NCBI RefSeq assembly: GCF_000012645.1
Contig: NC_007577.1
Coordinates: forward strand, 1 to 64,000
Direction of reading: 5' to 3'
Source: Prochlorococcus marinus str. MIT 9312
GTDB lineage: Bacteria > Cyanobacteriota > Cyanobacteriia > PCC-6307 > Cyanobiaceae
DNA length: 64,000 nucleotides
Shown here: one piece after another, positions 34,810 through 45,939 of the stretch
How the letters are laid out: each line of letters starts with the position of its first letter
Numbering within the stretch: the first letter of the stretch is position 1
The notes under the pieces: generated by a model
Told to the model about the DNA's origin: nothing
The model's input: only the letters and a program-made list of their open reading frames with translations
The model's database searches: none
Made by a program: the position numbers and the translations under genes

Positions 34810-36396
34810 ATGAGTCAAACATCTTTAAAAAAAGAACGCGATCCTTCAATACTAATTTTAGATTTCGGATCTCAATATTCTGAATTGATTGCAAGAAGAA
34901 TTAGAGAAACTAATGTTTTTTCTCTTGTAGTAAGTAACTGTATTTCAATTGAAGAAATTAATGATATTAATCCTAAAGGGATAATTTTGAGTGGCGGTCC
35001 AAATTCTGTATATGAAAAAAATGCTCCAAAATGTGATGAAAAAATTTTTAATTTAGGAATTCCTATTCTTGGCATATGCTATGGAATGCAATTAATGGTC
35101 AAAGAACTTGGTGGATCTGTAACTTCAGCAACCAAAAAAGCAGAATATGGTAGAGCACCAATAAATATAGATCAAGAATCTGAACTCCTTTCTGATGTAG
35201 AAGATAAATCCATAATGTGGATGAGTCATGGCGATTCAATTAATTGTTTGCCTGATGGATTTAATAAAATTGCTCATACCGAGAACACACTCCATGCAGC
35301 AATTTCAAATGATAGAAAGAAATTATTTGGCGTACAATTTCATCCTGAAGTAATTCATTCAGAGTTTGGGATAACGGTAATTAAAAATTTTGTTTATGGC
35401 ATTTCTAGTTGTGTGGCTGATTGGACAACCGAAACCTATATAGAGGAAACTATTCCTAGGATAAGAGATCAAGTTGGCAATAAAAAAGTTTTGCTTGCTT
35501 TGTCAGGAGGAGTTGATTCGTCAACTCTTGCGTTTCTTCTCAATAAAGCAATTGGAAATCAGCTTACATGCATGTTTATAGACCAAGGTTTTATGAGAAA
35601 AGGTGAACCTGAATTTTTAATGAATTTTTTTGATAAGAAATTTCATATAAAGGTTGAATATATTAATGCAAGGGAAAGGTTTATTTCCAAATTAAAAGGG
35701 ATTACTGATCCAGAACAAAAAAGGAAAATTATTGGTGAAGAATTTATTAGAGTATTTGAAGAAGAAAGTAATAGATTGGGCCCTTTTCAGTATTTAGCCC
35801 AAGGTACTCTTTATCCTGATGTTATTGAAAGTGCTGGTACTAATATTGATCCAAAGACTGGGGAAAGAATAGCTGTAAAAATTAAGAGTCATCATAATGT
35901 GGGGGGATTACCAAAAGATTTACAATTTAAATTAGTTGAGCCATTAAGAAAACTTTTTAAGGATGAAGTCCGCAAATTGGGAGCTGCCTTAGGTTTGCCG
36001 GATGAAATTATAAAAAGGCATCCATTCCCGGGACCAGGTTTAGCGATAAGAATTTTGGGAGAAGTTAATAATGAAAAACTTGACTGTTTAAGAGATGCAG
36101 ATTGGATAGTGCGAGACGAAATTAAAAAAGCAGGTCTTTACAATGATATTTGGCAAGCTTTCGCAGTATTGCTACCAGTTAAAACTGTAGGAGTTATGGG
36201 TGATAAAAGGACTTATGCATGGCCAATAGTTTTACGTTGTGTATCTAGTGAAGATGGTATGACAGCAGACTGGTCAAAAATTCCTTTTCCGATTTTAGAG
36301 AGAATTTCTAATAGAATCGTAAATGAAGTAGTTTCAGTTAATAGAGTGGTTTATGATATTACAAGCAAACCTCCAGGAACTATTGAGTGGGAGTGA
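34810..36396 (+). CDS. guaA: GMP synthase (glutamine-hydrolysing)
   Basis: GuaA converts XMP to GMP with glutamine and ATP. The 528-residue protein has a class I amidotransferase domain with nucleophile Cys90 in GICYGMQL and His in FGVQFHPEV, the ATP pyrophosphatase P-loop LSGGVDSST near 233-241, and a dimerisation domain ending in [12 protein letters not shown]. The gene is intact. Its last 21 bases are repeated in degenerate form downstream at 36515-36535 and 38289-38309, suggesting the 3' end is an integration or recombination target, as guaA is in several other bacteria. Confidence 0.97.
36376..36396 (+). repeat. guaA 3'-end repeat, copy R1 (native terminus)
   Basis: These are the last 21 bases of guaA, GGAACTATTGAGTGGGAGTGA, coding for GTIEWE and the stop. 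Copy R2 at 36515-36535 and copy R3 at 38289-38309 each match it at 17 of 21 positions in the same orientation. Confidence 0.8.
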
Positions 36397-36433
36397 CGGA
36401 AAATTGCCATATTTTATCAACAATGGAATTTTT

Positions 36434-36455
36434 GGGTTTTACGTGGGTTTTACGT
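36434..36455 (+). repeat. 11-bp perfect tandem duplication
   Basis: GGGTTTTACGT occurs twice back to back (36434-36444 and 36445-36455) in the gap between guaA copies R1 and R2. Its function is unknown; it may be a slippage product or a remnant of a recombinase-binding region. Confidence 0.9.
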
Positions 36456-36514
36456 GGAAATTTCACTTTCATAAATCCCTTGATACCAATGTGTTTCAAG
36501 GTTCGAAATCAAGA

Positions 36515-36535
36515 GGTTCTATTGAATGGGAGTAA
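36515..36535 (+). repeat. guaA 3'-end-like repeat, copy R2
   Basis: GGTTCTATTGAATGGGAGTAA would encode GSIEWE and a stop, an alternative allele of the GuaA C-terminus. The codons before it read GSKSR, weakly like the ITSKPP that precedes the native terminus, so slightly more than 21 bases may be homologous. It lies 119 bp beyond guaA, just before the 3' end of the sulfotransferase gene. Confidence 0.65.
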
Positions 36536-36580
36536 AGGATTACAGGGTTTTTTGCGATGTTTTATGGATATTATTACTGA

Positions 36581-38065
36581 TTAATACTTTAGGTCTTTAT
36601 ATTGATCCTTTTGAGTAATGATTTCCATTGCAGGTCTAAGCATCTCTTTATAGTTTTTCCATCCTCCTAAAGATTTTGTAGTGATTGGTGAACGAACCTC
36701 AACATTGCTTCTTGTTGAGACTTTACGATTATTTAAATGTGGCGATAAATATAAATCATTCCATTTCCAACCTAACCAAAGAATTAATGATTTTATCTCT
36801 TCTGAAGGATGAGTCACTAATTTATCGTAATTTAATTCATATATATGATTTTTAAATTCTTTTTTGTATATTTTCATGATCTCCTCTTGATCAGAATAAA
36901 CTGCAACAGAATCAACCAAACTTGAAGAGAAATTATTCCCTGTTGCGAAATGTGCTCTATACATAGAAAGGATATTATCTAAAGGATTTCTATAGCAATG
37001 TATTATTTTTGCATTAGGAATTGCTTGTGCAATTATGCCTGCATATTGATAATTAAATAACCATTTATTTGTTGTGGATCTTTTATTTTTGGTTATTTCT
37101 AATTTTTTCCAATATATTTCACTAAGGTCTGTTTTTTTTTCAGATTCTTTATATTCTCTATATGATTTTTCAAAGATATTGACTTCTCCAAGATCTCTTA
37201 CATGAGAATTCAAACTTATGATTGATTCAACCAGGGTAGAACCACATCTAGGAAGTCCTACTATAAAAATAGACATTGGATAATTTCCAAATGCTTTATT
37301 TTTTCTTTCATAATTATCTGAGGATATTTTCAACTTTTTAGTTTTATTGATTAATAAATTTGCTTCAGATTTATTCAATCTAAGTTTGATATTATTTGCA
37401 TTAATAAGATTCTCAGCGCTTTCTTGATATTTTCCTTCTCTATGAAAAATATTTGATCTTGCGAAAAAAATATTTATTAATTCTCTATTATTTTTGTTTT
37501 TTATAAGACTTTCAGAAAAAAGTTGATTGTGCCATTTTGGAGTTTTATCACCAGAATACATAGTTGATAATGATAAATATGCATCAGTCAAGTGAGGATC
37601 TATTTCAACTGCTTTTTGATTATATGAATCTGCCTCTTTTAATCTACCCAGATCTTTTAAAATAAATCCAAGATTATAGTAAGCAATAGCAAAGTCTGAT
37701 TTAAGTTTTATTGCTTTTTTAAGTTCTAATTCTGCTTTCCCCAAATTTCCTTGACCAATAAATAAAACTGCCAGATTGTAGTAAGCATTTGCATATTTAG
37801 GATTTAAAGAAATTGCTTTTTTAAGTTCTAATTCTGCTTCTTTGTGTTTTCCGATTTCGTTTAGGAATATTCCATAATTTGAAAAAACTCTATAGTCTTT
37901 TATTCCATGTTTAATAAGATATGCATAGTGTTTTGCTGCTTCTAGTGTCCTTCCTTGTGCTTGCAGTGTGAATGCTTTTTTAATCAATTGATCGCTATCT
38001 AGTATCTCTGCATTTTTTGGTGTTTTTATTTTCTTTAATTGGTTCTTTTCGCCAAAACCTTTCAT
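36581..38065 (-). CDS. TPR-sulfotransferase fusion protein
   Basis: The 494-residue protein joins an N-terminal TPR array (about residues 25-225) to a C-terminal sulfotransferase domain (about 262-490). The PAPS 5'-phosphosulfate loop is GLPRCGSTLVES at 270-281, and the 3'-phosphate region is HCYRNPLDNILSMYRAHF. Two adjacent TPR units share an identical 28-base stretch exactly 102 bp (34 codons) apart (37710-37737 and 37812-37839), so the array has expanded recently. The acceptor is unknown, perhaps a cell-surface saccharide or protein. Such proteins are typical of variable regions in Prochlorococcus, and this one is flanked by guaA-terminus repeats. Confidence 0.9.
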   Translation of the reverse strand: MKGFGEKNQLKKIKTPKNAEILDSDQLIKKAFTLQAQGRTLEAAKHYAYLIKHGIKDYRVFSNYGIFLNEIGKHKEAELELKKAISLNPKYANAYYNLAVLFIGQGNLGKAELELKKAIKLKSDFAIAYYNLGFILKDLGRLKEADSYNQKAVEIDPHLTDAYLSLSTMYSGDKTPKWHNQLFSESLIKNKNNRELINIFFARSNIFHREGKYQESAENLINANNIKLRLNKSEANLLINKTKKLKISSDNYERKNKAFGNYPMSIFIVGLPRCGSTLVESIISLNSHVRDLGEVNIFEKSYREYKESEKKTDLSEIYWKKLEITKNKRSTTNKWLFNYQYAGIIAQAIPNAKIIHCYRNPLDNILSMYRAHFATGNNFSSSLVDSVAVYSDQEEIMKIYKKEFKNHIYELNYDKLVTHPSEEIKSLILWLGWKWNDLYLSPHLNNRKVSTRSNVEVRSPITTKSLGGWKNYKEMLRPAMEIITQKDQYKDLKY

Positions 38066-38340
38066 TATTTATAAAGATAATTTCTTTATAGCGATTATAG
38101 TCTTAACGTAAAGTTTTTATAAATTGTTTACTAAGTAGATTAATGATTAATTTAATTGTAATTCCTAATTAATTATCTACAATTAGTTAGACAAGTTTTT
38201 TGAACTTACATAATGTTAGTAATCCTTTTGCTTAGCACTTGTTTCTGACGTAAAATTTACTCCTGTCTTAGTGCAAGCTTAGAGCAATGGAACTATTGAA
38301 TGGTGGTAAATTATCAAATTTTTTAAATTGGATTTAAAAC
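38066..38340. other. 275-bp AT-rich intergenic region
   Basis: This gap between the divergent sulfotransferase and PD-(D/E)XK genes holds a weak inverted repeat (AATTGTA at 38154-38160 and TACAATT at 38178-38184) and the guaA-like repeat R3 at 38289-38309. No convincing ORF or RNA gene was seen. Promoters for both flanking genes must lie here, but none is clear enough to call. Confidence 0.6.
38289..38309 (+). repeat. guaA 3'-end-like repeat, copy R3
   Basis: GGAACTATTGAATGGTGGTAA, in the guaA orientation, would encode GTIEWW and a stop, and the preceding codons give SN after an in-frame TAG. It matches native R1 and copy R2 at 17/21 each. It lies 1.9 kb beyond guaA on the far side of the sulfotransferase gene. 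Confidence 0.65.
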
Positions 38341-39057
38341 GTGATGAGCGAGATTATTAAATTAAGTAGATCCACTGTAGAAAAATATCTGAGCTGTCCT
38401 AGATGTTGTGTACTCGACAAAAAGTATCAAATAAAACCACCATCGTTACCATTTACTCTAAATATAGCAGTAGATAATTTATGTAAAAATGAATTTGATC
38501 ATTACAGAAGAATTCAGGAGCCACATCCATTATTGATTGAAAATGGTATTGATGCTGTGCCTTTCAAACACAAAGATTTAGAACGCTGGAGAAGTAATTT
38601 TCAAGGGATAAGATATAAATCAATTGAGCATAACTATGATTTTGGCGGAGCTGTTGATGATATTTGGCAGAAAAAAAATGGTGATCTTATCATCGTTGAT
38701 GTAAAAGCAACATCTAGAAAGAATTTTGATTGGTCCGAGACTTTTAATAAATACGAATATGCAAAAGCTTATAAGAGACAATTGGAAATGTATCAGTGGT
38801 TATTTCAGAAAAACGGTTTTCAAGTTGCTAATGAAGCATATCTTTTATATTTTAATGGAAAAAAAAATGAACAGTTTTTTAATAATCAATTAAAATTTGA
38901 TGTAAATTTAATTAGATTAGACTGCTCAACATCCTGGGTAGAACTTAAGATAATTGATACAGTCAATTTATTACGTTCCGATACTTTTCCAAAACCTTCA
39001 TTAAGTTGTGAATATTGTAATTATTTAAAAAAGCGTTGGCAGTTATCAATTACTTAA
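38341..39057 (+). CDS. PD-(D/E)XK nuclease-like protein with paired CxxC motifs
   Basis: The 238-residue protein has the catalytic core of RecB/Cas4-like PD-(D/E)XK nucleases: an acidic residue at 106/107 (GGAVDDIW), then IIVDVKAT with Asp120 and Lys122, and the downstream QLEMYQ motif at 147-152. CPRCC at 19-23 and CEYC at 223-226 could bind a metal or Fe-S cluster, as in Cas4 and AddB. No cas gene, CRISPR or helicase lies nearby, so a repair role is more likely than immunity. The start is GTG 38341 or the adjacent ATG 38344. It lies just past guaA repeat R3. Confidence 0.8.
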   Translation: MMSEIIKLSRSTVEKYLSCPRCCVLDKKYQIKPPSLPFTLNIAVDNLCKNEFDHYRRIQEPHPLLIENGIDAVPFKHKDLERWRSNFQGIRYKSIEHNYDFGGAVDDIWQKKNGDLIIVDVKATSRKNFDWSETFNKYEYAKAYKRQLEMYQWLFQKNGFQVANEAYLLYFNGKKNEQFFNNQLKFDVNLIRLDCSTSWVELKIIDTVNLLRSDTFPKPSLSCEYCNYLKKRWQLSIT

Positions 39058-44163: not shown

Positions 44164-45939
44164 CTAATAGTGATTAGCAACTTTTCTGTGATGAACAGCT
44201 GTTTTGCATGATAAATCAGAGACATTACCATTTTCAACAATTCCATAAATTATCCAATGATCTGGAGTCTCTAATCTGGAGCTCACTTTACAATCTAAAA
44301 AAGCGAGAGAATCTGATAGGACTGGTCCTCCTTTTGCGATGTTACTAATTACATCTACATCAGCAAATCTATCAGCTCCAGGGGCAAATCTTTTTAGAAA
44401 ATGTCTAAACATTTTCTGATAGTTGTCTTCTCGCAAGATATTAACAACAAAACCTTTTCCAACTTGCATATAAGATTCAATAGCTCTATCTTTTGCTACT
44501 GCTACCGTAATACCTGGTGGAGAAAAACTTGCTTGACTAACCCAACTTGCGACCATTGCACTTTGTCGAAACGTTGAACCTTCTCCTTGACTAGCTGTAA
44601 CTACATATAATCCTCCACTTAATCTGCCTAAAGCTTTATCTAAATTTGAATCAAGGCTCTTCATAGAAGCAATATTTTTCTTTTTATTGATCAATTGACC
44701 CAAGTCAGTTCCAGCTTCTTCGAATTGTTGATAAACAATGGGATCTGGAATGGTTTTAACTCTTAAAGGAGAGAAAGCTTCTTTTTGACCAAGTTCTCTT
44801 AATTTATTTGCTAAAGAATCTATTGGTTCATCATTTCCACCAAATGCATCATAGACAGCTGTAAATTGTTTTGATTTTAGTGCTGCAAATAAAGTACCAA
44901 GAGATTCTTTTAATTCATTATCTGAATCTACTGGCCATGTGGGGATGACTACTGCTTTTGACTCTGAAATTAAACTTGTTAATTCTTGGGGGTCAGAAGA
45001 TCTCAAATCAATTAATTGTACTTGAGCATCTGCTTTGCTTATTCCATGAGATATCGCTTGACTTAGTCGATCACAATAACCATAGTCGCTGATGTAGCAG
45101 ACTGATACAAAATCATTACCTTTGCTTTTATTGCTACTCCATTCTTGATATTTTCCTTTCCAAAAATTAACTTGATTATGAAGCAAAGGCCCATGACCTA
45201 CGGCTATTGTTTTTAATTCAGGTAGCTTATCTATTCTTTTAATTGCCTGCAGAACGCTTCTAGCGTTTGGACCCATTAGGCAATCGTAATAAAAACGAAA
45301 ATCATCATATATTTCTTTTTGATCAGTGTCATAAAATTCATCAGAACAGTAATGGAGTCCAAATGCATCGCATGTGTAGAGAACATGAGTGCTGTGGTCA
45401 TATGAAAAAATTGTATCTGGCCAATGTAAATTTGGTGCGCTTATAAATTCAATATTATGTTCTAAACCGCTATTAGGATTAGTCCCGAGATTTAAAAACT
45501 CTCCACTTTTAACTTCTATTTTCTTAAAGGGAACATGTATTTGGTCTTCAATAAACTTAAGGGCTAATTTTGATCCTACTACTGTGATATTTTTGTTTAA
45601 TTCTAGAAGATTACCTATTAAACCAGAATGATCAGGTTCTGTATGGCTTGTAATTAGATAATCCACTTCTTGTGGATTTACCTCTTTTAGTAATTCTTCA
45701 AACCATAATTCTTCGAATTTTGCGTGACTAGTATCAATTATTGCTAGTTTTTCGCCTTTAATAATAAAACTATTATAAGTAGTGCCATTCCTTAAGCCAA
45801 ATTCAATATCAAATCTACTGCGATCCCAATCCAGAGATCTTATGGCATAAGAATCATCAGCGAAGTTTTGAGATTGAACTGTCAACTTGTTATTTATTTG
45901 TGCCAATTTAGAATTACTTGTCTGGGCAGAGGCTAGCAT
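44164..45939 (-). CDS. flv3: flavodiiron protein, Flv3 type (canonical iron site)
   Basis: This 591-residue protein is the partner of the adjacent Flv1. Its diiron ligands are complete: H99-x-E101-x-D103-H104 (SHTEPDHS), H172 (NLHWPD), D191 (TCDAFGLH) and H249 (VGHGPLLH). The flavodoxin and flavin-reductase domains follow (VCYISDYGYCDRLSQAI near 273; WVSQASFSPPGITVAVAKD near 465). Flv1/Flv3 heterodimers catalyse the Mehler-like reaction that protects photosystem I under fluctuating light. It is first in the three-gene minus-strand unit. Divergent from alaS. Confidence 0.94.
   Translation of the reverse strand: MLASAQTSNSKLAQINNKLTVQSQNFADDSYAIRSLDWDRSRFDIEFGLRNGTTYNSFIIKGEKLAIIDTSHAKFEELWFEELLKEVNPQEVDYLITSHTEPDHSGLIGNLLELNKNITVVGSKLALKFIEDQIHVPFKKIEVKSGEFLNLGTNPNSGLEHNIEFISAPNLHWPDTIFSYDHSTHVLYTCDAFGLHYCSDEFYDTDQKEIYDDFRFYYDCLMGPNARSVLQAIKRIDKLPELKTIAVGHGPLLHNQVNFWKGKYQEWSSNKSKGNDFVSVCYISDYGYCDRLSQAISHGISKADAQVQLIDLRSSDPQELTSLISESKAVVIPTWPVDSDNELKESLGTLFAALKSKQFTAVYDAFGGNDEPIDSLANKLRELGQKEAFSPLRVKTIPDPIVYQQFEEAGTDLGQLINKKKNIASMKSLDSNLDKALGRLSGGLYVVTASQGEGSTFRQSAMVASWVSQASFSPPGITVAVAKDRAIESYMQVGKGFVVNILREDNYQKMFRHFLKRFAPGADRFADVDVISNIAKGGPVLSDSLAFLDCKVSSRLETPDHWIIYGIVENGNVSDLSCKTAVHHRKVANHY

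Follow-up and report, generated by a model that had tools for sequence, protein, structure and literature searches.

The 3' end of guaA, which encodes GMP synthase, is very probably the chromosomal attachment site (attB) of integrative elements that have a picocyanobacterial clade of tyrosine integrases and build arrays behind the gene. The window analyzed here is the first 64,000 nucleotides of the Prochlorococcus marinus str. MIT 9312 genome (contig NC_007577.1, forward strand), in which two units follow guaA, a mini-unit and then a sulfotransferase unit (Table 1). Across strains there are empty and filled sites, hybrid cores, arm repeats, an integrase linked to the site, and unit ends common to divergent hosts, and the evidence for the site and the crossover is strong. 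The units, often with cell-surface or anti-virus genes, are predicted to be mobile and to insert one behind another at the guaA tail.

The last 21 bases of guaA are present three times in the window, as guaA's own tail (R1) and two further copies (R2 and R3), all in one orientation and each pair differing at 4 of the 21 positions (17/21 identical). A scan of the whole genome (1,709,204 bp, one contig) with the guaA-tail pattern, allowing R at four positions and up to three mismatches, identified exactly these three copies and none on the reverse strand, and a reversed control pattern had no matches in the same scan. guaA is also the only match to the GMP_synt_C Pfam domain in this genome. Count and scan agree with the first-pass annotation, a reading of the bare sequence that had reported three such copies; their coding sense is kept as it had stated (GTIEWE, GSIEWE and GTIEWW, each followed by a stop), and its worry that similar repeats arise by chance elsewhere falls away, as none is found elsewhere in the genome. 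The stretch is refined here into two units, with R2 as the hybrid core that joins them.

guaA was matched in 261 of 266 genomes of the genus, and the downstream stretch was compared for 156 loci (window included), with complete genomes and loci far from contig ends favoured. G006 (L036, L095), in which the gene usually next to guaA sits 23 kb away on the other strand, was set aside, leaving 155 loci; its arrangement suggests an inversion starting at the hotspot. The site is empty in 42 loci, with the next gene 37-74 bp after guaA, and filled in 113. Of the filled loci, 97 have 188-19,974 bp between guaA and the next gene, and another 16, whose fetched stretch or contig ended before that gene, were counted as filled. 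In G228 (37 bp, counted as empty) guaA is followed by a left end typical of inserts, and the locus may represent a scar. Near kin can differ in whether the site is empty or filled, with guaA ends 98.9% identical. The strain comparison proposed with the first-pass annotation therefore turned up all that it anticipated (empty sites, other cargo, integrases at guaA, and tail copies as junctions), and the site is variable, with no gene and repeats fixed in all strains.

The 113 filled islands (492 kb) contain 132 tail copies with at most 4/21 mismatches on guaA's strand, leaving out guaA's own, and one on the opposite strand. A control of 835 kb downstream of the next gene has one and none on the two strands, and dinucleotide shuffles gave 0.5 per set, so chance is excluded; chance repeats are rejected by these counts and by the scan of the MIT 9312 genome. 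Two to four copies are present in 26 of the 113 islands, and the arrays are tandem units parted by same-orientation gene-end copies, as in additive islands. In L277 (G596, another genus) guaA is followed by five tail copies with arm repeats, and the integrase relatives of that genome lie on another contig. A tRNA attachment site was considered and rejected, since ARAGORN identified no tRNA in L162, L163, L182 or L219; its sole call in the window was a tmRNA at 58 kb.

The tail copies are hybrids. Junctions were labelled by left-end family from the sequence after the copy (87 of 199 assigned) and by right-end family from the sequence before it (66 of 138 assigned). Core positions 18, 20 and 21 follow the left-end family and positions 1, 3, 6 and 9 the right-end family, each position exceeding every one of 300 permutations. 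Positions 10-17 (GARTGGGA) show no link to either label, and the crossover therefore lies inside that 8-mer, which is GAGTGGGA in R1. This modifies the proposal that an incoming allele restores the 3' end of guaA and displaces the old one: the unit does supply the guaA end, but only from the crossover on (positions 18-21); a copy is indeed left behind, but as a hybrid, with positions 1-9 following the right end of the unit. A AACCCAGTTATAG-like motif recurs approximately 10-30 bases inside left ends at guaA (e.g. L163, L182, L219).

Most left ends also carry short-lag repeats, defined as an 8-base match of at least 7/8 recurring at short lag, which occur in 120 of 199 left ends vs 192 of 2,800 control stretches. 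The lag is 11 in 106 cases and the start is at +38 to +40 in 96, and the repeated word varies by family, e.g. GTTTCCCTCAG, GTTACACGTGG, GTTTGTCACGG and ATCACACACAG. The left arm stretch is matched before the right core (threshold 22/32) in 49 of 116 full units vs 1 of 115 interior controls, and cross-matching with another genome's unit brings 5 of 116 right ends to this threshold. In 41 of the 49 the right-end stretch starts 88, 89, 96 or 97 bases upstream of the right core. With a matching arm stretch at both unit ends, the joined ends would have arm sites flanking the core; a lambda-type attP has arm sites on both sides of its core. The 11-bp repeats are candidate integrase arm sites.

A Phage_integrase search of the genus pointed to genes adjoining guaA, and a search with the integrase protein gave 16 matches in 15 genomes. 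The five strong, intact ones (E 1e-87 or better; G185, G177, G113, G147, G182) all lie downstream of guaA, at 0.2 kb in four genomes and 1.0 kb in G177, and a remnant in G257 is 0.2 kb from guaA. Ten matches are weaker: six are at a flavodiiron-like gene (see below), two are in loci without that gene, and two were not placed. The five-integrase alignment was then searched against 400 genomes of the family, 40 of which matched, eight of them outside the genus and strong (E 1.2e-171 or better); the strong relative in G341 has an in-frame TAG. guaA was located in 16 of the 40. As predicted beforehand, all eight strong relatives from other genera lie 0.2-0.4 kb after guaA, as does a fragment in G475; a fragment in G349 lies 17 kb downstream, past an array of tail copies. 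Of six weaker relatives at E 1e-46 to 1e-30, the five tested (all but G542) lie away from guaA; G584 had no guaA match. A tyrosine integrase next to guaA is thus present in five genomes of the genus and eight of other genera, and the window's islet has no recombinase gene.

Pfam scans covered three of the five genus integrases, with PF00589 as the sole match above cut-off. The integrase profile matches Tn1549 Int and Xer structures (best E 5.5e-7), and Foldseek with a weak model placed Tn1549 Int and Cre first, at TM-scores of only 0.2-0.3. At the expected catalytic places all five share the same arginines, a lysine and a tyrosine, and a tyrosine replaces the usual histidine of the HxxR box; the catalytic roles of these residues are presumed.

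Together, the empty and filled loci, the hybrid copies and the integrase linkage support repeated integration at the guaA terminus, as first proposed. The joined ends of an element would carry a guaA-tail-like core flanked by arm sites, and the integrase would exchange strands inside GAGTGGGA. The element would provide the last bases and stop of guaA, so that guaA stays intact, and a hybrid tail copy would remain at the far end. Further rounds, by elements that do or do not encode an integrase, would place more units directly behind guaA and so build arrays; the integrase-less elements would presumably be served in trans. Excision as a circle and re-integration would account for the empty and filled sites.

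Several observations weigh against guaA integration of this kind. An intact integrase of the clade is present in only 5 of 266 genus genomes, so that most arrays, among them that of the window, lack an enzyme of their own. The AlphaFold model of the integrase is of low confidence (predicted local distance difference test, pLDDT, 60.6). Viral contigs were considered as carriers of the integrase, but two IMG/VR scans held no close relative, the six matches being at 23% identity only. A second tail copy at 4 mismatches or fewer is absent from 23 of 113 filled islands, and 67 of 116 full units are below the arm-match threshold. The end-family patterns were written after the ends had been viewed, and no family was assigned to 112 of the 199 left junctions or to 72 of the 138 right ones. 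Nor has an excised form been seen.

Since homologous recombination exchanges core DNA in these bacteria and most arrays lack a resident integrase, tandem duplication or gene conversion of the guaA end might be proposed, with the enclosed genes entering by homologous recombination and no site-specific recombinase at work. This is very improbable: homology ends at approximately 21 bases, the copies change over inside a single 8-mer, the ends of units and the spacing of their arms are conserved, and the integrase clade is tied to the guaA site in two genome sets. It is also quite unlikely that another enzyme, the integrase of a tRNA element or a small serine resolvase, moves the units while the guaA integrases serve their own elements only. 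The integrase-less units have the same core and arm layout as the integrase-bearing ones, and the weaker integrase relatives sit at other sites, although the arrays without integrase, the several arm-repeat classes, and the small serine resolvases in 4 of the 5 integrase-bearing elements (three by Pfam match, one by clustering) would suit such an enzyme. A serine resolvase was set aside as the guaA recombinase, as the hybrid cores and the integrase linkage favour a tyrosine enzyme.

The attB reading is also consistent with the spread of unit ends among hosts. The first 40 nt are shared with at most one mismatch by 55 pairs of filled loci, and those of G025 are the same as in G017 and G245 despite guaA ends at 77-78% identity. 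The G182 element is collinear with that of G341, from another genus (86% over 4.4 kb, guaA end included). Relatives of the window's sulfotransferase unit are found at 86-90% in seven genomes and at differing array positions, and the one in G053 sits between two tail copies. These identical left ends in divergent hosts, the near-kin empty and filled loci, and the open integrase frames in five genus genomes make it rather doubtful that the site was once active and that present arrays are mostly fossils, inherited with the chromosome or by whole-region homologous exchange, even with the remnant in G257, the fragments in G475 and G349, and the decayed right core and unit 2 left arm of the window.

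Unit 2 of the window appears to be old. Its 494-aa open reading frame (ORF) has Sulfotransfer_3 (E 8.9e-27) and TPR domains. The arm comparison gave no recognisable left arm and a possible degenerate right arm near 38239-38255. Since its right core has decayed to GAATGGTG, the unit is probably no longer mobile by itself.

Unit 1 belongs to a class of mini-units, which make up 22 of the 138 bounded units, in 22 genomes. All are under 200 bp (138-140 bp in 16, 147-148 bp in five and 162 bp in one), and the next unit size is 414 bp. They typically hold one arm pair, not two, as read from their sequences. Fusion of the arm copies in the 49 full units predicts 147-148 bp (32 units), 139-140 bp (9), 138 bp (1) and 162 bp (1), with six other lengths falling between 119 and 159. 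Given these lengths and the single arm pair, the minis, in several families, look like units that lost their cargo by recombination between two 11-bp arm copies, which would yield the 138-162-bp forms. The nearest kin of unit 1 are in G190 (87%) and G203 (84%). A mini is not the first unit of the array in G246, G203, G257 and G096, and G149 and G052, with 82% identity between their guaA ends, have minis that agree at 96%. An RNA gene inside the mini-unit was rejected, as Rfam had no match in 36200-38500 at E up to 1. A tentative further idea is that the units are trans-mobilised cassettes with one core and many arm classes, moved by a few integrase-bearing, probably self-replicating drivers, with the minis as mobile empty cassettes. 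If so, minis could take up new cargo between arm copies, and the cassette design would hold at other protein-gene ends, e.g. that of the flavodiiron-like gene.

The 7.6-kb unit of G113 (L162) encodes the integrase, 216-aa, 314-aa and 663-aa (DUF5906 match) proteins and a serine resolvase, and is followed by three further bounded units. G147, G177 and G185 have in common the integrase, 216-266-aa and 314-327-aa proteins, and a resolvase; G177 also has the DUF5906 protein, below cut-off. The G182 element encodes the integrase and an acyltransferase. Invariant HxH and YxNK motifs in the 216-266-aa protein resemble those of rolling-circle Rep proteins, and we take them to have the same roles here. 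The protein has one weak Pfam match (REP_ORF2-G2P, E 3.4e-4, below cut-off), and its profile had no convincing match in the PDB; an AlphaFold model (pLDDT 47.9) was not used. From its motifs the protein is likely Rep-like.

A sulfotransferase domain is present in 37 of 407 cargo ORFs (at least 80 aa, from 93 islands), in 32 islands; ORFs from the 16 loci with the right border unreached may include ordinary neighbour genes. Other cargo clusters, each identified from one scanned representative, are MreB (13 islands), an EPSP-synthase-family protein that is MurA-like by eye (10), acyltransferase-SGNH (9) and asparagine synthase (3). The extra MreB and MurA-like genes perhaps serve cell-wall variation. 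PADLOC models, mostly of restriction-modification, matched 10 of 10 proteins that had been chosen for looking like defence genes. Surface and defence cargo may protect against phage. The islands of four genomes encode a bare DnaB-like helicase C-terminal domain of 316 aa (L099:2166-3113, plus strand).

A second site of this type looks to be present 8 kb from guaA, at the end of a gene that we take to encode a flavodiiron protein. The distance from this gene to the next, also flavodiiron-like, is 16-41 bp in 87 of 112 loci and 324-5,754 bp in 25. In G010, G123, G009 and G137 the far side holds a copy of the gene's last 21 bases with 3-4 mismatches, and the six weaker integrases that adjoin its 3' end are of a different group. 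The insert gaps, tail copies and integrases suggest that protein-gene ends may be a general class of integration site here. The AACCCAGTTATAG-like motif is also found inside left ends at this site (L207, L209, L210).

Table 1. Features of the guaA site and related loci. Positions are those of the window unless a locus is given.
Feature	Position	Strand	Basis or remark
guaA (GMP synthase)	34810..36396	+	ORF of 528 aa; attachment site at its 3' end
Copy R1, left junction (attL), the tail of guaA itself	36376..36396	+	Tail-pattern scan, sequence
Crossover 8-mer GAGTGGGA in R1	36385-36392	+	Crossover interval from junction analysis
Unit 1, gene-less mini-unit of 139 bp, CGGAAAATT family	36397..36535	+	Includes right core copy
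Arm repeats of unit 1, 2x TGGGTTTTACG, lag 11	36433..36454	+	Putative integrase-arm role
Copy R2, hybrid core joining units 1 and 2	36515..36535	+	GAATGGGA at 36524-36531
Unit 2, sulfotransferase unit, 1774 bp	36536..38309	+	Includes right core
TPR-sulfotransferase cargo gene, 494 aa	36581..38065	-	ORF, domain matches
Copy R3, right junction (attR)	38289..38309	+	Decayed core at 38298-38305
Chromosomal sequence, right half of old site	38310..38340	+	Resembles post-guaA sequence in empty loci, e.g. G038, G116
Next conserved gene, putative PD-(D/E)XK	38341..39057	+	Right border of hotspot
Flavodiiron-like gene	44164-45939	-	16-bp gap to 44147
Extra MreB-cluster cargo gene	L228:753-1871	+	13 genomes
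MurA-like (EPSP-synthase family) cargo gene	L192:2550-4172	-	10 genomes

The usual account of gene exchange in Prochlorococcus rests on islands linked to tRNA genes. Docking at a protein gene, by units whose cargo includes sulfotransferase, restriction-modification and envelope genes, is a concrete, testable route by which adjacent cells could come to differ in traits relevant to phage attack. With the crossover, arm sites and integrases mapped, the system allows laboratory transfer tests and the reading of cassette turnover from single-cell genomes, and the mini-units offer a measure of cargo loss.

As the first-pass annotation had stated for other bacteria, guaA 3' ends are established sites of integrative and conjugative elements (ICE) and integrative and mobilizable elements (IME) in other phyla (PMC7775301, PMC9376610). 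GIsul2, ICERspD18B, ATE-1 and a Brucella IncP island are like the elements described here in their insertion at the guaA 3' end, GAGTGGGA core and tyrosine integrase, and guaA islands of Rheinheimera (PMC7775301) and Shigella (PMC9376610) have GAGTGGGA as their published core; by insertion site and core the present units are guaA 3'-end elements of the GIsul2 type. The GIsul2 integrase experimentally moves GIsul2 as well as a sub-unit bounded by an internal att site (PMC9376610), and its three att sites with a separately mobile sub-unit resemble the picocyanobacterial multi-unit sites. Unlike the GIsul2 group, the sites described here have arrays of several short units, many 11-bp arm classes and gene-less minis, and no conjugation genes were recognised in the annotated elements. 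The P4-type integrase with AlpA of PMC7775301 was likewise not seen in the scanned proteins: the three PF00589 integrases have no P4-type arm domain, and AlpA is absent among the 20 proteins scanned, which cover small ORFs only partly.

For tycheposons, a group of Prochlorococcus elements, PMC10872708 cites integration at seven tRNA genes. Both they and the guaA units are picocyanobacterial and integrative, with a tyrosine recombinase and variable cargo; tycheposons are reported at tRNA genes, and the guaA units are at a protein gene. Integration at one of the seven tRNA genes was not found in L162, L163, L182, L219 or the window. An integrase family of Prochlorococcus and Synechococcus, located by tRNA-Phe or tRNA-Cys and frequently accompanied by a small serine recombinase (PMC10187409), resembles the guaA elements in having an integrase, a serine recombinase, and restriction-modification and other cargo nearby, and differs in its reported attachment site. 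In the additive islands of Methylophilaceae, recurring copies of the last 20 bases of tRNA-Lys mark the island (PMC10872708), much as gene-end copies mark the guaA arrays; the islands are at a tRNA gene and the passages compared mention no arm repeats or minis, whereas the guaA arrays are at a protein gene and have both. The literature searched, whose coverage did not extend to Hackl et al. 2023 (Cell) and its supplements, held no report of guaA islands in cyanobacteria. The site and the type of mechanism are known from other bacteria, and the picocyanobacterial arrays, with their arm classes and mini-units, appear to be a new variation on them.

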